This document shows, in pieces, positions 3,724 to 40,301 of a DNA stretch of 64,000 bases (the stretch's first letter is position 1; the number at the start of each line of letters is the position of its first letter). Origin of the DNA: Candidatus Nanoarchaeia archaeon (GTDB lineage: Archaea > Nanobdellota > Nanobdellia > CSSed11-243R1). The notes beneath the pieces are model-generated. The model was not told where the DNA came from, did not search any database, and worked only from the letters and a program-made list of their open reading frames with translations. The stretch covers positions 578,979-642,978 of the forward strand of contig JAQTNH010000001.1 of assembly GCA_028713895.1 (NCBI GenBank), given 5' to 3'. A program made the translations under genes and the position numbers.

Positions 3724-4230
3724 GTGGTAATTCACATATACACAGGCACTGGAAAAGGGAAGACTACTGCAGCACTCGGGCTCTCATTACGCGCAGTCGG
3801 GCACAAAATGAAAGTCATAATCGTGCAATTCATGAAAGGCTGGAAAACAACAGGCGAGTATGTTATACAAAAAAAGCTTGCGCCATACTTTCACCTGTAC
3901 CAGTTCGGGAGAAAAGGATTTGTTAACCTGCAGCACCCCTCAAAAAAAGACATTGCACTTGCCAGGAAGGCATTTGAGTTCGCAAAAGAAAACCTTGCAA
4001 AGGCAGATGTTCTGGTCCTGGACGAGATTGATGTTGCAGTGCGATTCGAGCTTTTGCCTGCAAGCGAAGTTGTAGAGTTCATGAAAAAAGTCCCGAAGGG
4101 CAAATGGGTTGTGTTCACCGGGAGATATGCCATGCCTGAACTATACAAGTATGCTGATTATGTCACTGAGTTCAAAGATTTAAAGAGGCCCCAAGAAAAG
4201 ATGCGCGCTAGAAAGGGCATTGAGTATTAA
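3724..4230 (+). CDS. cob(I)alamin adenosyltransferase-like P-loop protein (BtuR/CobA family)
   Basis: The family transfers the adenosyl group of ATP to cob(I)alamin. Visible features are the Walker A motif GTGKGKTT (residues 8-15) and a Walker B-like VLVLDEIDVA (about 95-104); the final ERRARKGIEY-type tail is also family-like. At 168 residues it matches short archaeal members. It starts with GTG 4 bp after the mutase stop codon. No other cobalamin gene is in the window, so the substrate is uncertain: it may serve salvage, or be a repurposed ATPase. Confidence 0.8.
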   Translation: MVIHIYTGTGKGKTTAALGLSLRAVGHKMKVIIVQFMKGWKTTGEYVIQKKLAPYFHLYQFGRKGFVNLQHPSKKDIALARKAFEFAKENLAKADVLVLDEIDVAVRFELLPASEVVEFMKKVPKGKWVVFTGRYAMPELYKYADYVTEFKDLKRPQEKMRARKGIEY

Positions 4231-4231
4231 G

Positions 4232-4876
4232 ATGGCAAAACCGATTGACAAGATAATTTCTGAGCTGCGGAAACTTTACGGCAAGAACGATGTAATCACA
4301 ATTGCGAAAGGGCACCCTGCTGTTTTTGAACTTTTGATTCGAACTATACTTGCAGCGCGGAACACTGACGAGAACGCACTGGCTGCGTCAAAAGAGCTTT
4401 TTGCAAGATACAAAACGCCGCAGCAAATCTCTAAAGCTCCATTGCAGATACTCGAGAAGCTTGTGAAGCGCGGAGTGTTCTACAAAGTCAAGGCGCGAAG
4501 CATACGAAAGTTATGCGGGATTCTTGCTGAGAAATACAACGGGAAAGTTCCGAAGACAATGGAAGAGCTGACGCAGCTGCCTGGTGTCGGAAGGAAAACA
4601 GCGAACATAATTCTTACTTATGGATTCGGGACTCCAGCTGGGATAGCGGTTGACACGCATGTGTTCCGAACAGTGAACAGAATCGGGATTGTAAACGAGA
4701 AGACGCCTGAGAAAACTGAGACTGCTCTGCTGCAGATTGTTCAGCGCAGTTATTGGCAGGAATTCAACTCGCTGTTTGTTGATTTCGGGCGCGATATCTG
4801 CCAGGCAAAGAAGCCGCAGCACGAACGCTGCCCGCTGAGACAATGGTGCGATTTTTACAAAAATTTGAAGAAATGA
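4232..4876 (+). CDS. nth: endonuclease III (DNA glycosylase/AP lyase) with His in the Fe-S ligand set
   Basis: Excises oxidised pyrimidines and cuts the abasic strand. The helix-hairpin-helix LPGVGRKTAN supplies the catalytic Lys122, and VDTHVFR supplies Asp141 (numbering from the ATG; an in-frame TTG lies 12 nt upstream, inside the previous gene). The C-terminal cluster loop reads C190-X6-H197-X2-C200-X5-C206, so the second Cys of the standard CX6CX2CX5C [4Fe-4S] motif is His. Everything else looks functional. It directly follows the BtuR-like stop codon. Confidence 0.93.
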   Translation: MAKPIDKIISELRKLYGKNDVITIAKGHPAVFELLIRTILAARNTDENALAASKELFARYKTPQQISKAPLQILEKLVKRGVFYKVKARSIRKLCGILAEKYNGKVPKTMEELTQLPGVGRKTANIILTYGFGTPAGIAVDTHVFRTVNRIGIVNEKTPEKTETALLQIVQRSYWQEFNSLFVDFGRDICQAKKPQHERCPLRQWCDFYKNLKK

Positions 4877-17493: not shown

Positions 17494-20400
17494 ATGAAAT
17501 CTGGCGAACACGGATATACTTTGATGGTATTTGTTTTAATCGCCATATTCTTATCTTTTTTAGTTGCAGGAACCAATACGGGGCTGTTTATTGACAAAGG
17601 AAGAGCAGTCCAGGAGGACAATACAGCGCCAGAACCTTTTGTTGAGATTACCGCGCCTGAAACTACAAGCGAGCCTGTTGCTGAAGAAGAACAGCCAGTT
17701 GAGCCTGAGGAACCTATAATCCCACCAGAGAATGGGACAAATGAAGCTCTGCCTGGGGTGCTGAACTTTGGGACAATGAGCACTGTTGGCGCATGCGCGG
17801 ATATCGTAGGTGCAGGTTATTATGTATTAACTACTGACCTTGCGGATAACCAGTCAAATGGAGTCTGTATTTATATCAAGTCTGACGATGTAATCCTTAA
17901 CTGCAGCATTTATAATCTGACTTCGAGTCTGCCGGCTGATACTCCCGGGCAGTACACTTATGGAGTCTTTGTTTCTGGGCAGGATAACGTGACAATAACA
18001 GACTGCGACATCTATAACTATACAATGGGGATAGATTTGACAAATAGCGGAGCTATTAGCGTTACAAAAAATTATCTTGCTGCAAATTATATGGGGATCA
18101 CTGTTTATGGCACTAACTCGAGCAATTTTACTGGTAACACGATGAATTCAAATGACAATGGAATGTTCCTTTTTGGGTCAATCAATAATCTTGTTGTGAA
18201 CAACACAGCAAATTCAAATTCGCTGTCAGGTTTCCTTATGGATATTGTAGATTATTCCACTTTTATAAATAACACGGCGTCATTAAACACCGGAGGCCTG
18301 TCCTTGAATGGGACTAAGTATTGTACATTCACAGGAAATAATTTTACTGAAAACACCAATACAGGTATTGGCGCGCAGTACTATTCAGACCATAACACAT
18401 TCAGCAGTAATACAATAAATTCAACTACAGCCTCTTCAGGTGTTGTACTGAGCTATAACTCAACAAACAACTCTTTTACGAATGACAGTGTTAATATGAC
18501 TTCGCCGTATTATAACTTTTATACCGATAACGGAACTCTTACTGTTGTCAACAATATGCTGATTGGAGATGTTCGCTCAAGCTTTTTTATGGGTGATGAC
18601 GCATTCCTTATGATTACACAAGCAACAGCTCCTGCTGGCGGAGACCCAGCAGGTTACACGAACATAGGCAAGTATCTCAATATAACAAATGAAACAGCCG
18701 GCTCGTGGATTTATATCAATGTTTCGTACGATGATGGGGATTTATCACCGTTAGCAATCAACAATACCACAATAAAAATTTTCAAAAATGTTTCAGGCGG
18801 CTGGACTTCAGATATCGGAACCCCCAACACAATAGATGAAACACATAAAATTGTGTACGCGAACATCTCAACATTTGGAAGCATATTTGCTCCGATGGGC
18901 GAACCTTTGGATGTAAGTGGCTGTCAAAACCTGACTACTGCAAATAATGTTTATGTTCTTACACAAAACCTGGTGGGGAACCTGTCAGGCGGAGCATGCA
19001 TAAACATTACAGCAAATAATGTAACACTGGACTGCGCCGGCAAGAGCATAACAGGGAATGAGCCTGGGATGAATCATTTCGGGGTTTATGTAAACGGTTA
19101 TAATGACACAACCATCATCAACTGTATTATTACCAATTATTCATCTGGCGTCTTTATTTATTCATCTTCAAACAGCTCTATTGCCAACAACTCTGTATAC
19201 AGCAACACTGAAGGTATCAGGCTTATTGGGTCCCCAAACGGCTCCATCATCAACAACTCTGTTTACCAAAGCTATAACGGCATCGATATAGACACAGATT
19301 CCAGCAATACCCTCATTGTCAACAACTCTGTTTACAGCAGCGAACAGGCAGGAATCTTGGTTAGCTCGTCTTCAAATAACACCATAACCAACAACTTGGC
19401 TTACAACAACTCACAGTATGGCATTGCAGTCCAGCTTTATTCAGCCAATAATACATTAGCCGACAACTCAGTTTACAACAACTCACAGCATGGCATCGTC
19501 TTCTATTTGGCCACAAATAACCATTTAACCAACAACTCAGCTTACAACAACTCACAGTATGGCATTGCTTTTGAGTCTGGTTCTGATAACAACACTTTGA
19601 CTAACAATAACGCGTCTTTCAATACAGTATGGGACTTTTATTCAACAGACAGCCTGGGCAATAACATAACAAACCTTACCACAAACAACACAATTTCAAG
19701 CTTTACATATTCAGGAAATATTTCGCTTAAAAGTTCAGACGGGTCAGGCAGACCAGACTTGGCAGAGTACCAAAACATCGGGCGCTATCTTAACATAACA
19801 AATGGAAGCGCAGCCGCCTGGATTTACCTGAACATATCCTATACTGATGCGGGCATTATCCTGGTAAATGAGTCCTCTTTGCGGATATTCAAGAACGCCT
19901 CAGGAAACTGGAGCCAGAGCCTTAACCTTACAGGAACGCTGACAAGCGGGGTTAATGAGACTGCAAATTATGTTTATGCAAACATCTCAAACTTCAGCAG
20001 CGTGTTCGCGCCCATGGGAGAAAAGCTTCCAACTGCGTTCTATCTGATAAATGTAAACGATACAAATCACAACATAACCGCGAAATACTCTGCCAACATC
20101 ATGAATGCAGACGGATTATCATACTGCGCTATTGAGCACAACAACACAGGCTCGTTTGCAAATACAAGCTTTACTGCGCTCAGCGGAACATCTGTCTGGT
20201 GCAACATTACAATCATCAACAATAATTCAAATAACACAAACATAACATGGTATGTTTGGGCAAACGATTCAACTGAAACCTGGGCGCGTTCAGATGCACA
20301 ATCATTTTTAACGACCAACACTGCGCCTGTTTTGACATCAGCCTCGTCGAATGTCACAAACATAACAGAAGGGACTGCGGTCGGGCTTTTGAGTTCAGGC

Positions 20401-22224
20401 GCAGATGATGGCAATGCTGACAGCCTGAGGCTTGAATGCGGATACTCCAACGGAGCAGTTGATGCCTGCGCCGGAACGTACGGCTCTGGAGAGAGGACAT
20501 GCACGTTAGCGTGGCCATACGAAGACAATAATAACCACACCCTGTATTGCAGAGTAAATGACAGCTACGGAGTTTCAACACCAGATTTTGAATTTAACAT
20601 TACAGGGTATGCGTCTTACTTCAGGATAGTTTTGGTTTCGCCTTTGAATGACTCGTATCACAACAATGCAAGCTTGTGGTTTAATATTTCTACAACCAAG
20701 AACGCCAGCGCATGCCTGGTAAGCATTGACGGGAATGCAAACGCAACAATGGGCAACTCAACTCCAACAGCATGGTACAATTATACAACAGGGCTCTCAG
20801 GGAGCAGCCATAATGTTTCGTTCTGGTGCAACAAATCTTACAGCCCTGATGAGAATGACAGCAAAACAGCATATTTCACAGTTGATTTGACAGCGCCAGT
20901 TATTAATATTACTTTGCCAGCAGGCGGCTCAACATCCACAACAGAAGATGTTGCCATGCATGCAACTGTTAACGAGCCTGCATCAACCTGCAGGGTTGAG
21001 ACAGATGGCGACGACAATACAACAATGACAAATTCATCAGGAGACTGGCACGAAACAATTGAGTTACCAAACGGAGCCCATAGCGTAAAAGTCTATTGCT
21101 CTGATTTGGCTGGGAACTGGAATGCCAGCGGGACTGTCGCGTTCACTGTAGCTGTTCCGGCAACTACGGGCGGCGGCACGAGCGGCGGAGGCATTTCAGG
21201 CGACACAGTCATTTTCACATTTACGAACATACCCCTGAATGTGTACTCTTCATCAAGCTCAAGTAACCCTGCGATAGACATAACCAAGATTGTTATAAAA
21301 CCAAAACAAACACTGACAGGGCAGGTAAGCGTAAAACAGCTCACCCAGAAACCAACAGAAGTCACTGAGCCCTCAAACAAGACATCCAGGTATTTCCTGT
21401 TCACTTCAACGAACATACCCTACACCTTGATTGTGGACGCTGAAGTGCACTTCAGGGTTTTGAAGTCATGGGTTACGCAAAATAATGTTGACCTTAGCTC
21501 AATAAAGCTGTACAGGAACTCAAACGGATGGCAGACGCTTTCAACAGAAAGCAATGGCAGCGACAGCACATACTATTATTTCAAGGCATCAACAACAGGG
21601 TTCTCATACTTTGCAATAAGCGGAAAAGCAGTCTCGGCGGCTCCTGCGCAGAACCAGACAGTAACGCCGATAATTGTCCCTGTCCCGATAGCAATATGCG
21701 GTGACGGGGTATGCGACACATCAGAAACATCCATTGACTGCCAGGCTGACTGCCCAGGCCCGACTGCTGAAGAGCGGGAAACTGGAATTAACATACTAGT
21801 TATATTTGGATTGAGCGCATTTGCATTGGTGGCCGCAGCTGTTGTTGTATTCCTGCTTGTAATACGGCCCAGACTTTTGAAACCAGCAGAGACAATGCCT
21901 GCTGTTGAAGTAAACATACTTCCTGAAAAAGAGCACATGCTTGAGGCATACATAAGAAAGACAGTGTCACAGGGGCACAGCCAGCAGGAAATCGTAAATG
22001 CGCTTCTGGGCGCAGGCTGGACTGAGGAGCAGATAGAAGCTGCTTTTGAACTCGCAATGGTTCCCCCGCAAAAAGAAGAAGCGCTTATTGAATATGTGCA
22101 GAGGCAATTCACCCGAGGGTTTACAGAGGAACAGATAACACAAAAGATGACAGGCGTCGGATGGAGCCTAAAAGAGGCGAGACATTCGATAAAAATTGCG
22201 CAAAAAGGTTTTGAAAAGTCTTAG
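17494..22224 (+). CDS. giant surface protein: NosD-type beta-helices, PGF-pre-PGF domain, membrane span, cytosolic LLGAGW repeats
   Basis: Predicted type I membrane protein of 1576 residues. A signal or anchor helix (about 8-30) and a Pro/Glu linker lead to two right-handed beta-helix regions (about 100-340 and 470-730), rich in NNS repeats and each followed by a related 110-residue module containing YLNIT, SxWIYxNxSY and SxFAPMGE. Ig-like segments run to about 1220, then a GGGTSGGG hinge, a PGF-pre-PGF domain (about 1230-1390), a Cys-rich GDGVCDTSETSIDCQADCP motif (about 1401-1420) and a span at about 1430-1455. The cytosolic tail carries two 40-residue repeats around LLGAGWTEEQIE and MTGVGWSLKEA. 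Likely cell-surface adhesion or sugar binding with an inside partner. Confidence 0.85.
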   Translation: MKSGEHGYTLMVFVLIAIFLSFLVAGTNTGLFIDKGRAVQEDNTAPEPFVEITAPETTSEPVAEEEQPVEPEEPIIPPENGTNEALPGVLNFGTMSTVGACADIVGAGYYVLTTDLADNQSNGVCIYIKSDDVILNCSIYNLTSSLPADTPGQYTYGVFVSGQDNVTITDCDIYNYTMGIDLTNSGAISVTKNYLAANYMGITVYGTNSSNFTGNTMNSNDNGMFLFGSINNLVVNNTANSNSLSGFLMDIVDYSTFINNTASLNTGGLSLNGTKYCTFTGNNFTENTNTGIGAQYYSDHNTFSSNTINSTTASSGVVLSYNSTNNSFTNDSVNMTSPYYNFYTDNGTLTVVNNMLIGDVRSSFFMGDDAFLMITQATAPAGGDPAGYTNIGKYLNITNETAGSWIYINVSYDDGDLSPLAINNTTIKIFKNVSGGWTSDIGTPNTIDETHKIVYANISTFGSIFAPMGEPLDVSGCQNLTTANNVYVLTQNLVGNLSGGACINITANNVTLDCAGKSITGNEPGMNHFGVYVNGYNDTTIINCIITNYSSGVFIYSSSNSSIANNSVYSNTEGIRLIGSPNGSIINNSVYQSYNGIDIDTDSSNTLIVNNSVYSSEQAGILVSSSSNNTITNNLAYNNSQYGIAVQLYSANNTLADNSVYNNSQHGIVFYLATNNHLTNNSAYNNSQYGIAFESGSDNNTLTNNNASFNTVWDFYSTDSLGNNITNLTTNNTISSFTYSGNISLKSSDGSGRPDLAEYQNIGRYLNITNGSAAAWIYLNISYTDAGIILVNESSLRIFKNASGNWSQSLNLTGTLTSGVNETANYVYANISNFSSVFAPMGEKLPTAFYLINVNDTNHNITAKYSANIMNADGLSYCAIEHNNTGSFANTSFTALSGTSVWCNITIINNNSNNTNITWYVWANDSTETWARSDAQSFLTTNTAPVLTSASSNVTNITEGTAVGLLSSGADDGNADSLRLECGYSNGAVDACAGTYGSGERTCTLAWPYEDNNNHTLYCRVNDSYGVSTPDFEFNITGYASYFRIVLVSPLNDSYHNNASLWFNISTTKNASACLVSIDGNANATMGNSTPTAWYNYTTGLSGSSHNVSFWCNKSYSPDENDSKTAYFTVDLTAPVINITLPAGGSTSTTEDVAMHATVNEPASTCRVETDGDDNTTMTNSSGDWHETIELPNGAHSVKVYCSDLAGNWNASGTVAFTVAVPATTGGGTSGGGISGDTVIFTFTNIPLNVYSSSSSSNPAIDITKIVIKPKQTLTGQVSVKQLTQKPTEVTEPSNKTSRYFLFTSTNIPYTLIVDAEVHFRVLKSWVTQNNVDLSSIKLYRNSNGWQTLSTESNGSDSTYYYFKASTTGFSYFAISGKAVSAAPAQNQTVTPIIVPVPIAICGDGVCDTSETSIDCQADCPGPTAEERETGINILVIFGLSAFALVAAAVVVFLLVIRPRLLKPAETMPAVEVNILPEKEHMLEAYIRKTVSQGHSQQEIVNALLGAGWTEEQIEAAFELAMVPPQKEEALIEYVQRQFTRGFTEEQITQKMTGVGWSLKEARHSIKIAQKGFEKS
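19170..19600 (+). repeat. coding tandem repeats in the second beta-helix
   Basis: Imperfect units of about 72 bp encode turns such as NNSVYNNSQHGI and NNSAYNNSQYGI. These repeats are the rungs of the beta-helix, kept in frame. They are prone to slippage, so copy number may vary between strains. Confidence 0.7.
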
Positions 22225-34933: not shown

Positions 34934-35293
34934 TTACTCCAAAGCAAGGTGCTGCTCTTTACGCAGCGTGACTATGTGAACGCCTGCTTTCTTTGCCTTG
35001 CGCTTCAGCTCTGCGTCCTGAGTTGCGATAAGCGCGTGCTCTTTCAGCGCGAGATTGATAACTGTATCATCGACTGTCTTTGCCTTTGGGATGTCAACAA
35101 CAATCACATTCCGCTGTTCCATCAGGTCAATCGCAGCGATTCCCATCTTTTTTGTGCGGAGCTCTTCAATACAGACAAAAGGAATCATAGTCCTGAACTC
35201 TTCGTCAAAGATTCTGTTGAATTCTGAGAAAATGTCCACCTTGAACTGAAACGGTATCAGGCAAAAATTTGTGTCCAAAATAACCTTTAACAT
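34934..35293 (-). CDS. PIN-domain ribonuclease, VapC9/Fcf1-like
   Basis: Start chosen at MLKVILDTNFCLIP, where the PIN fold begins; the longer frame adds 54 unrelated residues. Acidic residues fit the PIN active site: Asp in LDTNF, Glu in CIEELRT, Asp in TVDDTVINLA and Asp in TQDAELK. 119 residues. No antitoxin gene is next to it, and the sequence LDTNFxLIPFQFKVDIF is close to archaeal rRNA-processing Fcf1/UTP24-type proteins, so rRNA maturation is more likely than a toxin. Confidence 0.83.
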   Translation of the reverse strand: MLKVILDTNFCLIPFQFKVDIFSEFNRIFDEEFRTMIPFVCIEELRTKKMGIAAIDLMEQRNVIVVDIPKAKTVDDTVINLALKEHALIATQDAELKRKAKKAGVHIVTLRKEQHLALE

Positions 35294-35352
35294 AAGTTTT
35301 AATAAAATCGAATACTTTAAAAAATGTACTATTTTGGGCAGACAGCAACCAT

Positions 35353-35360
35353 TATATATC
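35353..35360 (+). promoter_or_regulatory. TATA box of the toxin-like surface-protein gene
   Basis: TATATATC in the divergent gap predicts transcription start near 35385 and a leader of about 60 nt, longer than usual for this window. The leader contains a weak hairpin (CATTG/CAATG) and GAGGGGTGG before the GTG start. Confidence 0.4.
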
Positions 35361-35446
35361 CGGACTGCCTTCAAATATATTGGGCAAGTGTTTACATTGT
35401 TCTTTGCAATGATTACTGGGGTGACATAGAGAGGGGTGGAACCTGA

Positions 35447-38400
35447 GTGAAACAACTGTTCCGGATTAGACTGATTTTATTGTTCGTAATTCTTGTATTA
35501 GTTATAGGCTCCTCCCTGGCTATCACATCAGTCTCAAGCAAAAAGATGTGCAGAGATAATCCAAGCTCTAGTGGTAGTTGCACATCAAGCGATGGTTTTT
35601 ATGATGCTACAGACAAAGTTTGGTTCTACTGGAAAGAGTACGGAGTAACACATAACGGCTGCATACATATGCACCATACGCACACAGAAACACAGCCAGA
35701 CGGAGATACATATACTGGCGAAACCCACAGTTTCAGTGAATGCGATGGTAATTGGGACTATTATTCATGGGAATGGTCGTGGTGGGGAACAAACGGCCCT
35801 GAAGATGATGCATGGCGCCCAGGTTCGTATAACGTAGAATACTTAGCTGAAGACAAAAAGGATAATACCCACAAACATTTTTATTTTGATTTCACAATAA
35901 AAGGACTTACGATAAGCAATGCTGCCACCTGCAAGTCTGTCGGGGAGAATTACTGCAATGAAAACAGCGGACATTACAAAGTTACAGACACTGTTTACAA
36001 TTTCTACAGGGCATGGTGGGTGTTCCATGATGAAAACGCTGATCTTACAGTGAGTTACCATATCCACACACCATGGGGCGAAACGTGGTATTATGATGAC
36101 AAGAATTATTACGTAGGCGGTGACTATGAATATTTCTGGAATTGGAAAAGCTTTAGCCCGCCGGGCGGAAAGTGGACTCCAGGGAATTACAGGGTAGACT
36201 ACGAAGTGACTGATAACAGGATAAGCTATGACCAGACATTCAAAATCCCTTTCACAATTGACGAGCCTGACTGTTCGTATCTTGCGGGATGCAGCAGCGG
36301 TGTCTTGAAAACAAACTGCAGATATGATTCAGGCGCAGGAGACTGCATGTGCGACAGCTACACACAACCGGATAACGGGTGGTACTGCAAAAATAACGGG
36401 GCAATGGAAAAACGGAATTACACAGGAACATGTTCTGGAAGCAGCTGGAACTATAATATACTGAACAGTGTTGACTGCGGAACATACAACACCGCAGGCT
36501 CAGGGACATACTGCAACAGCAATGAACTCCGCACAAAAACCTGGAGCTGGGCTTACAAGTGCTCAAACGGGGACAACCAGAAACCAGAAGCTGTGTGCGC
36601 ATTTGATAAGTCCATATCCTCTGAAACAGATACGCTGAGCCAGAACTGCGATGCAGGATATGACGGCAGTTACTGCAATGCCGCAGGGAATATCGAGCAG
36701 AGAGACTACAAATGCTTTGGCGCAACAAGCGCAGGCATGCCAGCCGAGACAGATTCGTACAGTCCCCCTGCTGACTTTGTTGAAAAAGATAAAAGGCGGA
36801 TAGACAAAGGAAGGGGTATAGTTGAAGAATTCTCAGCCACAATAATCCACTCAACTTCTGCGGCAGAATCACTGCCGTACTGCGGCTACGACACAGCATC
36901 AACAACAGCCTGTGTGATTGGATGCACATATCTCAGCGGCACAGCAGTATGCAAAGGAGTTGACCTAAAAAGCACATTCACTGCTCCAAGCGCCATGATT
37001 GGAGACAAAATTAACATTACTGTCAATTACACATCAAAGTCTTATTCAGGAAACACGAAATTCGCAGTTGATTTAACAGGCTTAACAGATTCAGAACAGG
37101 CGTTTACAACAGCTGTAATCGCAAATGCGGACAGCTCTGTTGTCCTGCAGTATACAATACCATACACTGCAGATGCGCTGCCAGACATGCAGTACAGAGT
37201 ACGTGTTTATGACGCAGCAGGAAACCTTCTGAGCACGTTAAGCAGCGGAAAAATATCAATCGAGGGTTTTGTTGACATAACAAAAGTCAGCACTGCAGAC
37301 GAGTATACAACAGGCTCCTCTGCCAAAGTGAGTCTTGATTATGTTTCGTACGGAATAGACAAAGATGTCAAATTCAAACTGGACATAGGCACATGCAAAA
37401 CAATGGACTACGCCAGCTGCAATGCACGCGAACAGAACTACCAGGTATGCAGGAGCGAGGAAGTGTGCATGTCCGAACCAATATTCTCAATAATGGCAAC
37501 CAAAGAGAAAGTTCCGATACGAGAACCTGAACCTATTATATACAAGCCGATAATCACTCTTCCCGTTCATAAATGCAAGTTCGAAACAAGATGCTATGGG
37601 GATATTGTAAAACTTGATAATAAATGTTATACATGCACTGATTTTGCAAAAGAGGTTTCGTATGAACTCGCGCTGGATGTTGACAAGGGCGCAAACAGCT
37701 TTGAGCTGGACATGCCGCTGCCTTCAAACATGAGCGAAGGAAGCTATGCGGTGCTTGTGCAGGTGTTCAATGACAAAGACAAACTGTTCGACTCCATGAC
37801 GTCAAGTCCGTTCATCACGTCAAAGATTTTCCCAACAACAGGAGCGATAGGGTTCTATCCCACTGCAGGAGACGGCGATTCCTCTGGCAAAACAGGAGGA
37901 GCGCTGAAGACGATTGCAATCGGAATAGCTGTCACAGCGGCAATCGCCTCAATCGCAGCATTTTCAATATCTGTTGTCAAATCAAGCAGAGGCGGAACTG
38001 ATTACCTCAGCGAGCTGAACAAATCAATAGGCAAAACAACAGATGTTTTCTCAAAAGTAGTCAAAGACAGAAGCGAGGACATGAAAGAAAAAACAGGGCC
38101 TGTGTTCACTCCGATTACGCCTCCAAAAATTGGGGCTCCACGAAGCGATTACTCGGGAGTGCAGCAGCCGATGGGGGACTATGCAGGCACAGTAACAGCG
38201 CCTGGACAGTATGATGACAGCAAATACAAGGGGCACGGAAGCCCGCCAGCAATACCACCTTACACAAGCCTGCCAGGATATCACAGGCCAGGCATGAGCC
38301 AGGATGACCCTGCGCCAGGAACCAACCCGCTGCCTGATGATGGCGGAGATAATAATGATGCCGGATATTATGGTGGAACTCCCCTTCCAAATTCATTTTG

Positions 38401-39547
38401 GGAGCCCTCTGAAGAAACAGATGCAGACGCATTTTTCAATGAAAATGGCTATTCAGGCGTTACCGGTTTCATAGCTCATCTTAAGGATTGGCTTGAAGAG
38501 CCGTTACACGCAATAGAAGGTGCCCCAGGCAGTCTTGGTTGGCAAGTTAAATTTGCCTTGGATACAATAGTTGGTTTCTTAGATGGAGCAGCCCAAATGA
38601 TTGATGGCTTGATATATCTTGCCAAATCTTTGTTTACTGACCCTGTCGGAACTATATCCGCTTTGTTTGGCGCAATATGGGACGCAGCAACCCATCCGGT
38701 AGAAACAATCAATGGAGTAATCAATTATTTCAAGGAAGAAGTTGATGACGGCCATCCTGGACGCGCTGTTGGAAAAGCCATATTTGAAATAGCCGCTTTT
38801 GTTGTCACTCCTGCTAAAATTGCAGAAGCAACTGGTTTGGGCGGGAAACTTTCAAAAATGTCCGGCCTTTTGAGAGCAGGCGCATTACTATCTAAAGCTA
38901 CAAAACTTGCAACGTATTACTCTAAAATTCTGAATATAGCCAAAAGCGAGCTTTTGAATATGTTTAACCAGCTTGAAAAGATGGATTATGCACTGGCTGC
39001 AAGACTTGAAAAGCTGGTTAGGATAAAGGGTTCAGAAAACTGGGTAAGCGAGATGTACACTTCCAAACTCAATCCCCGAAATTTGAACGGAATAATAGGG
39101 GAGATTGATAATGTTGAGTTTTGGCAAGCCGCCAAATTTACAGTAACTAAAGTTTCGTATATGGCAAATGTTGTGATACCTGATAAATATCTGTCACGAT
39201 TTAAACCAGGTCAATTTATATCGAAAAACACCGTTCAGATGCAGATAGACGCATTCGTTACAAAAGGCGGAGTAAAATACATAGTTGAGAAAAAAGCGTG
39301 GACCAACTTAGAATTCAAAACACTTGACAGTCTCAAAGATTTTGAAAGACAGATAATTAAATACAAATATAGGGCTGTAACAGATAAAGCAAAAGCTATA
39401 ATAAATATAGATAAATCCTTGTTAATGAAGGATTACAGCGCATTAAGCCAAGAAATGCGCGAACAGATTGGCAGAATCAAAACACTGTTAGAGAACGAAT
39501 ACACAGCACAGATTATAGAAGGCAAATGGGTTTTTGTTTCCAAATGA
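35447..39547 (+). CDS. polymorphic toxin-like surface protein with C-terminal PD-(D/E)XK nuclease
   Basis: 1366 residues, GTG start with GAGGGGTGG upstream. Signal peptide 1-26; two related Trp/Tyr-rich beta domains (about 30-150 and 160-275); Cys-rich stretch (280-500); two beta-sandwich domains (about 510-640); a Cys-containing region to 810; membrane span 821-843 followed by KSSR; Pro/Gly-rich linker to about 1000; helical hydrophobic part (1003-1135, with HPVETINGVINYFKEE and GRAVGKAIFEIAAF) like bacterial pre-toxin domains; terminal nuclease-like domain with E1219 (GIIGE), D1268 (QIDAF) and E1281-x-K1283 (VEKKAW). A gene in immunity position follows after 19 bp. By the positive-inside rule the nuclease is cytosolic, so it may be a receptor-effector rather than an exported toxin. 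Confidence 0.75.
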   Translation: MKQLFRIRLILLFVILVLVIGSSLAITSVSSKKMCRDNPSSSGSCTSSDGFYDATDKVWFYWKEYGVTHNGCIHMHHTHTETQPDGDTYTGETHSFSECDGNWDYYSWEWSWWGTNGPEDDAWRPGSYNVEYLAEDKKDNTHKHFYFDFTIKGLTISNAATCKSVGENYCNENSGHYKVTDTVYNFYRAWWVFHDENADLTVSYHIHTPWGETWYYDDKNYYVGGDYEYFWNWKSFSPPGGKWTPGNYRVDYEVTDNRISYDQTFKIPFTIDEPDCSYLAGCSSGVLKTNCRYDSGAGDCMCDSYTQPDNGWYCKNNGAMEKRNYTGTCSGSSWNYNILNSVDCGTYNTAGSGTYCNSNELRTKTWSWAYKCSNGDNQKPEAVCAFDKSISSETDTLSQNCDAGYDGSYCNAAGNIEQRDYKCFGATSAGMPAETDSYSPPADFVEKDKRRIDKGRGIVEEFSATIIHSTSAAESLPYCGYDTASTTACVIGCTYLSGTAVCKGVDLKSTFTAPSAMIGDKINITVNYTSKSYSGNTKFAVDLTGLTDSEQAFTTAVIANADSSVVLQYTIPYTADALPDMQYRVRVYDAAGNLLSTLSSGKISIEGFVDITKVSTADEYTTGSSAKVSLDYVSYGIDKDVKFKLDIGTCKTMDYASCNAREQNYQVCRSEEVCMSEPIFSIMATKEKVPIREPEPIIYKPIITLPVHKCKFETRCYGDIVKLDNKCYTCTDFAKEVSYELALDVDKGANSFELDMPLPSNMSEGSYAVLVQVFNDKDKLFDSMTSSPFITSKIFPTTGAIGFYPTAGDGDSSGKTGGALKTIAIGIAVTAAIASIAAFSISVVKSSRGGTDYLSELNKSIGKTTDVFSKVVKDRSEDMKEKTGPVFTPITPPKIGAPRSDYSGVQQPMGDYAGTVTAPGQYDDSKYKGHGSPPAIPPYTSLPGYHRPGMSQDDPAPGTNPLPDDGGDNNDAGYYGGTPLPNSFWEPSEETDADAFFNENGYSGVTGFIAHLKDWLEEPLHAIEGAPGSLGWQVKFALDTIVGFLDGAAQMIDGLIYLAKSLFTDPVGTISALFGAIWDAATHPVETINGVINYFKEEVDDGHPGRAVGKAIFEIAAFVVTPAKIAEATGLGGKLSKMSGLLRAGALLSKATKLATYYSKILNIAKSELLNMFNQLEKMDYALAARLEKLVRIKGSENWVSEMYTSKLNPRNLNGIIGEIDNVEFWQAAKFTVTKVSYMANVVIPDKYLSRFKPGQFISKNTVQMQIDAFVTKGGVKYIVEKKAWTNLEFKTLDSLKDFERQIIKYKYRAVTDKAKAIINIDKSLLMKDYSALSQEMREQIGRIKTLLENEYTAQIIEGKWVFVSK

Positions 39548-39566
39548 AGCCAGGGAGCGATAAAGT

Positions 39567-40301
39567 ATGTCAGAAAAAAAATCATATGTGGCATTCCATG
39601 TAAAAACTGGGATTGAAGAAAAACAAATGGCGGACTTAGCCAGTGCTTCGAAGAAATACGCCCTAAACAAAATTTACTTTCTTGCATCAACAAAATCAGG
39701 TTACGAAACTATTGATCCTAAAAAAGCCGCTGCGCTAATAAAAGAAGGCAAGAGTGCTGAACTTTCGTTTGTTATGAAATTTAAAGGCCCTAAATTCACA
39801 CCGGAACTTTCGGTTTCGTTTGAACCTGACAAAAAAGGATGTCTGTTGTGTGTTTCTACAATTGAAGACAATCTTACCCGATATTTTGATAACAGTTCTA
39901 TTGAAAAAGACTCTGGTGTCCTGAACCAAAAAATGTTTTTAGATTTTTGTAAAGACGTATACAACATATTCCACCCACTAATTGGTTTTTCAGGAAGAAA
40001 TGATTTTGAGGGGGACTCTACAAAAGACTGGTTGTCTAAACTTGAAATCAGGTACCTTTCATCCATAATGTTTTTTGGACATGATTACGTTAAAAAATAC
40101 GGCAAGGTGCAACTTTTGAAGACCTATGGCGCATGGAAGATTGACGCTTTTAAAGACGGCGGAGTAATGATTGCATTGCAACCCATGATGTCTGCATGGG
40201 GGATAGGTTCTAAAGAGAAAGAGTTTGTGAAAGCTTCTTCACATTTGCTTGCACTTTTTAAAATAAAACATGATAAAGAAAATAAATGGCTCTTTTACTG
40301 A
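39567..40301 (+). CDS. candidate immunity protein for the adjacent nuclease-toxin
   Basis: 244 residues, no signal peptide or membrane span, so cytosolic. It starts 19 bp after the toxin-like gene behind a GGGAG Shine-Dalgarno sequence. Middle and C-terminal blocks WLSKLEIRYLSSIMFFGHDYVKKYGKVQLL and FKDGGVMIALQP resemble in style the W-shaped immunity proteins of bacterial polymorphic toxins, but I cannot name a family. Assignment rests on position, strand, spacing and cytosolic nature. It ends 7 bp inside a convergent small gene. Confidence 0.6.
   Translation: MSEKKSYVAFHVKTGIEEKQMADLASASKKYALNKIYFLASTKSGYETIDPKKAAALIKEGKSAELSFVMKFKGPKFTPELSVSFEPDKKGCLLCVSTIEDNLTRYFDNSSIEKDSGVLNQKMFLDFCKDVYNIFHPLIGFSGRNDFEGDSTKDWLSKLEIRYLSSIMFFGHDYVKKYGKVQLLKTYGAWKIDAFKDGGVMIALQPMMSAWGIGSKEKEFVKASSHLLALFKIKHDKENKWLFY

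Follow-up and report, generated by a model that had tools for sequence, protein, structure and literature searches.

A membrane-anchored polymorphic toxin-like protein and its candidate TsiT-like immunity gene in a Nanoarchaeia genome

The DNA considered here is a stretch of 64,000 nucleotides (below, the window; positions 578,979 to 642,978 of contig JAQTNH010000001.1, assembly GCA_028713895.1) from Candidatus Nanoarchaeia archaeon, whose genome is an archaeal metagenome-assembled genome (MAG) of 1.07 Mb in 13 contigs. Two adjacent genes, separated by 19 bp, lie on its + strand, to which all features described below belong. The first, P0001 (35447..39547, GTG start), encodes a surface polymorphic-toxin-like protein of 1366 aa, and the second, P0002 (39567..40301, ATG start), a predicted immunity protein of 244 aa with a TsiT-like fold. 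An earlier note, made from the letters of the window, had given both open reading frames exactly these coordinates and had proposed that they form a nuclease toxin–immunity pair. That proposal is supported by the PD-(D/E)xK-like model of the P0001 terminal domain, by tip swaps among relatives in family f21 and by the position of P0002-family genes beside D...ExK proteins, and the pair probably represents a membrane-anchored polymorphic toxin together with its immunity gene. Scans against Pfam, NCBIfam and PADLOC and sequence searches of the PDB gave no usable match for either protein.

The nuclease-like tip of P0001 and the fold of P0002

The terminal domain of P0001, modelled as residues 1181-1366 (38987..39544), is PD-(D/E)xK-like according to AlphaFold, Foldseek and an alignment of eight tips. 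The model has a predicted local distance difference test score (pLDDT) of 82.1 and a predicted template modelling score (pTM) of 0.77, and most of its high-probability Foldseek neighbours are AddA nuclease (probability 0.80-0.92), AF1548 (0.89) and Cas4 SSO0001 (0.63-0.69), all of which we take to be PD-(D/E)xK proteins; one high-probability match, Mth0212, has a different fold. The predicted active site consists of E1219 in the GxxGE helix (GIIGE; 39101..39103), visible in the sequence, the model and the alignment, D1268 (39248..39250) and E1281-x-K1283 (39287..39295), and in the model numbering of m09a73907052c the candidates are E39, D88, E101 and K103. These four residues stand where the earlier note had put them; the sequence also holds a motif that it lacked, QxxxY (QIIKY, Q1302-Y1306; 39350..39364). 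The alignment was built from homologous C-termini found next to a P0002-like gene. Since the aspartate and the glutamate of ExK align in 8/8 tips, and the lysine in 7/8, the motifs are not due to chance. Profile comparison relates the domain to that of a protein in genome G003 (8e-6) and only weakly to one in G032 (0.025), which nevertheless has the motif and the partner gene in common with it. An REase (restriction endonuclease) profile run over 378 genomes returned many weak matches in proteins of 260-290 aa; those inspected were mostly TrmB-like regulators, and these matches were counted as chance.

Among 350,542 PDB chains, the AlphaFold model of P0002 (pLDDT 74.5, pTM 0.81) had a single match below 0.001, namely 9oz0_A, from the PA3907-PA3908 effector-immunity complex (E 3.4e-6, probability 1.00, template modelling (TM) scores 0.47/0.49), and the second rank was taken by 6d7y_B, from a CdiA-CT/immunity complex. 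PA3907 is the TOX-REase nuclease TseT, and PA3908 is TsiT, the immunity protein that goes with it; within the PD-(D/E)xK nucleases, TseT belongs to the Tox-REase-5 family (PMC9990079). The chain 9oz0_A is most likely TsiT, because its 235 residues fit the 720-bp tsiT gene, a comparison of length only. The fold nearest to the P0002 model is thus most likely that of the bacterial partner of an REase toxin, while P0002 itself accompanies an REase-like domain, a coincidence that chance would hardly produce. In the Pfam, NCBIfam and PDB sequence searches P0002 matched no curated immunity family; the P0002 family is an unnamed TsiT-like immunity family, missed by curated libraries.

Linkage of the two genes and replacement of tips

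Profiles built from P0002 only, and therefore blind to the toxin, retrieved two genes in G003 and one each in G005 and G032, then one in G220, and then one each in G336, G388 and G387, that is, eight genes beyond P0002 in seven genomes of three archaeal families; profile-to-profile comparison with hhalign supports the homology (9e-10 and 2.9e-6). All nine members of the family (9/9, at eight loci, that of P0002 in G000 included) adjoin a D...ExK protein, so the downstream gene is not widespread without the toxin domain; had it been, this would by the earlier note have spoken against the pair. In six further loci the P0002-like gene follows the D...ExK protein directly, and in G003 a gene for 96 aa stands between them. 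The C-terminal parts of the partner proteins carry D...ExK and mostly also QxxxY. Weak matches of the immunity profile in G318 and G030 lay in housekeeping surroundings and were counted as chance; genome G318 also holds an aRF1 release factor gene (L064:3-1445) with an apparent intein right after the GGQ motif.

Some of these loci show further features. In G003 the partner is a protein of 2029 aa (L013:10409-16498) in which an REase-like domain is followed by a domain with HEYLH (HExxH), and downstream of it come the 96-aa gene and the pair of P0002-like genes; the arrangement may represent a tandem of two toxins, each with its immunity. The G032 locus contains two nearly identical small genes (L019:734-1120 and 4084-4476) and two similar signal-peptide stretches, an arrangement that resembles a duplicated or orphan cassette. 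A subtilase gene lies downstream of the pair in three f21 genomes (L063, L080, L081), in G336 after one small gene.

Polymorphic toxins are defined by exchange of the tip, along with the gene after it, on a carrier that is kept, and this behaviour was found in f21. The carriers of G384 and G385 are mostly 40-80% identical to that of G388 over more than 900 residues, until about residue 1000-1100; over the last 200-250 residues identity drops to about 10-22%, and the genes downstream of the three are unrelated in sequence. The REase-type tips of G220 and G388 are still 31-39% identical. The six members of family f1 have a common juxtamembrane block with the motif GF[FYLV]P, at least two kinds of tip and different downstream genes, and in f1 and f21 loci different tips go with different small downstream genes. 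One member of the family is a paralogue in the genome of P0001 itself, outside the window (L014:5823-9272, 1149 aa). It has a different ectodomain, the juxtamembrane block of P0001, a pre-toxin region like that of G032b (4e-14) and another terminus, a HEASE-motif tip, and a different downstream gene, of 124 aa, overlaps its end. The tips with HExxH/HExxE in G003, G001 and L014 might be metalloproteases, a reading that was considered but not adopted.

The carrier, its topology and its surroundings

The domain order that the earlier note had described for the carrier was recovered throughout. P0001 begins with a signal peptide or N-terminal hydrophobic segment (residues 1-27, 35447..35527; hydropathy 2.91 at 9-27), followed by two Trp-rich beta-like domains delimited by self-alignment, repeat 1 at residues 29-155 (35531..35911) and repeat 2 at residues 156-275 (35912..36271). 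Their local alignment scores 124 against 40.7 +/- 7.5 for shuffles (maximum 70 in 500), and because this is far above the shuffles the two are true repeats of each other. The Cys-rich and Ig-like (immunoglobulin-like) ectodomain, recognised by cysteine counts and profile matches, covers residues 276-801 (36272..37849), and its Ig-like part matches generic archaeal Ig surface proteins. The motif GF[FYLV]P follows at residues 802-805 (37850..37861) and stands just ahead of the span in all six members of f1, perhaps as a signal for processing or sorting. Outside family f1 the juxtamembrane profile matched only ordinary Ig-type surface proteins. The single strong internal span, which had been put near residue 821, covers residues 823-841 (37913..37969; hydropathy 2.31) and has basic residues on its C-terminal flank. 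A Pro/Gly-rich linker (about residues 880-1000, 38084..38446) and a helical, moderately hydrophobic pre-toxin region (residues 1015-1140, 38489..38866; 65% identical in G005) precede the terminal domain, and the pre-toxin helices reach a hydropathy of only about 1.4.

The distributions of charge, cysteine and sequons agree in placing the N-terminal part outside and the remainder inside, and the predicted location of the toxin half is the cytosol of the producer itself, a point overlooked in the earlier note. All 32 cysteines of P0001 precede residue 846, and the last 520 residues contain none. In the C-terminal halves of six f1 members only 2 cysteines were counted in 3574 residues, while about 46 would be expected from 23 proteins of the window. 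Because cysteine is nearly absent from it, we read the C-terminal half as made to cross membranes; the scarcity could instead reflect an unusual composition of the linker.

A PIN-domain gene lies beside P0001 (window 34934-35455), and the G003 locus likewise has a PIN-like gene at its side. Next to each of the three REase-type loci of family f1 stands eIF2-gamma, so the cassette occupies a conserved place. Elsewhere in the window (17494-22224) there is a beta-helix/NosD-type surface protein of 1576 aa with Ig-like domains. The genome also encodes type IV filament ATPases and a rhomboid protein, which say little since all control genomes have both. The source archaeon is tiny and probably has a symbiotic lifestyle.

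Proposed mechanism, alternatives and known systems

The mechanism by which such a protein might act can be outlined as follows. It is proposed that P0001 leaves the cell with its N-terminal part by the Sec pathway, and the Trp-rich and Cys-rich domains would stand outside, where they probably bind a partner or rival cell. One span would anchor the protein, and the linker, the helical pre-toxin region and the PD-(D/E)xK nuclease would be held on the cytosolic side. Upon cell contact the nuclease would reach the cytoplasm of the neighbour and cut its nucleic acid, with release possibly by cleavage near the GF[FYLV]P motif or in the pre-toxin region. P0002 would bind the nuclease domain and so protect producer and sibling cells. 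Computation supports the toxin–immunity reading well, through the order of domains, the nuclease-like fold with its motifs, the constant association with the P0002 family and the exchange of C-termini in related systems; that the domain cuts nucleic acid, that P0002 inhibits it and that the pair is used against other cells is inferred.

Several results weigh against this proposal. The REase fold claimed in the earlier note is borne out as far as the model and its neighbours are PD-(D/E)xK-like, but no Foldseek match of the terminal domain reached E < 0.001, the best E-values being above 0.01, and the domain was not recognised by the sequence libraries (Pfam, NCBIfam, PADLOC and PDB sequences). 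In structure, P0002 resembles TsiT moderately (TM 0.47-0.49). Tip swapping on a constant carrier, which the earlier note had named as a test, was found in the f21 relatives of the pair but not for the exact P0001 carrier, of which G005 holds the only other full-length relative found, with the same type of tip. Also, simple secretion would need the toxin half on the other side of the membrane from the one predicted.

The predicted topology also bears on two alternatives. In the first, P0001 is an uptake protein of the SPEARE type, with an ectodomain that attaches to the host, a cytosolic nuclease that degrades incoming DNA for food or protection, and P0002 as a regulator only. Its layout (an adhesive outer part, a span toward the C terminus and an inner REase) is that of SPEARE, for which the authors proposed such a role (PMC6642349), the f1 topology places the nuclease inside the producer, and the subtilase after the pair in three f21 genomes recalls the SPEARE serine protease. 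However, uptake needs neither joint replacement of tip and neighbouring gene nor several immunity-like gene copies or an immunity-like fold, and we consider it unlikely. In the second, P0001 is a membrane receptor for self-sacrifice or defence, in which contact or attachment of a virus, sensed outside, frees the producer's own cytosolic nuclease, with P0002 as the resting inhibitor. An outside sensor, a span, an inside nuclease and a cytosolic inhibitor fit the predicted topology, but PADLOC has no match for either protein, the near lack of cysteine in the inner half points to a route across an oxidising space, and swapping of tip and neighbour is typical of offensive toxins; this explanation seems very unlikely. 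That P0001 is an adhesin whose terminal domain has a degenerate or non-nuclease fold, with P0002 an unrelated neighbour, would agree with the missing curated families and the Foldseek E-values but hardly with active-site residues retained across eight divergent tips and a constant P0002 partnership across three archaeal families, and is extremely improbable.

Beyond the locus itself, a wider and more speculative idea may be considered. Those surface proteins of DPANN archaea that have an REase domain on the inner side, SPEARE included, might be contact toxins and not DNA-uptake enzymes, a nearly Cys-free nuclease being kept under the symbiont membrane with its inhibitor and delivered, where the cells touch, into the host or rival attached there; we regard this tentatively, as a possibility of rather low probability. 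To our knowledge, such a mode of delivery is not known from bacteria. The locus also provides a concrete alternative way to read the SPEARE nuclease part. Little is known of how DPANN archaea affect the cells to which they live attached; here a nuclease domain and a candidate antidote are both well delimited and small enough to be tested in a laboratory strain.

The pair resembles bacterial PD-(D/E)xK polymorphic toxins such as TseT-TsiT of the Pseudomonas aeruginosa type VI secretion system in that a nuclease-like tip follows a carrier and pre-toxin region, with the cognate gene directly downstream, and in that tips are swapped in related archaeal systems. The immunity fold also recalls CdiA-CT/CdiI, the P0002 model being closest to the chain of the TsiT complex. 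In contrast to TseT-TsiT, the system is archaeal and has a Sec-exported, single-span surface carrier and no known secretion apparatus, and unlike bacterial systems neither protein matches Tox-REase or immunity families in sequence. Polymorphic toxins have been described in archaea (Makarova et al. 2019, as cited in PMC8416519; loci in PMC6393860), and these are likewise modular secreted proteins, with PD-DExK among the toxins and immunity genes nearby; in the available portions of these accounts, a P0002-type immunity family and an anchored carrier are not described. Archaeal polymorphic toxins are thus already known in general, and what is new here is the unnamed TsiT-like immunity family and the anchored DPANN carrier.

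The closest parallel in architecture is SPEARE of Nanohaloarchaeota (PMC6642349), also a DPANN surface protein with an adhesive ectodomain, a span toward the C terminus and an REase-like inner part; judged by hydropathy and charge only, P0001 fits this layout of span followed by inner REase. P0001 differs in being much shorter, in having no laminin-G or protease domain in the Pfam scan, and in being accompanied by an immunity-like gene. REase parts of the SPEARE kind have been reported to be missing from Parvarchaeota (PMC6642349), yet G005, which has the P0001 relative, is a MAG from that group. The outer and inner portions of SPEARE were found in different size fractions (PMC6642349), which would fit processing, and Ca. 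Nanohaloarchaeum antarcticus, a producer of a SPEARE protein, lyses its host (PMC11291902). The subtilase beside related pairs in three f21 genomes makes these loci resemble the parts of SPEARE split into separate genes.
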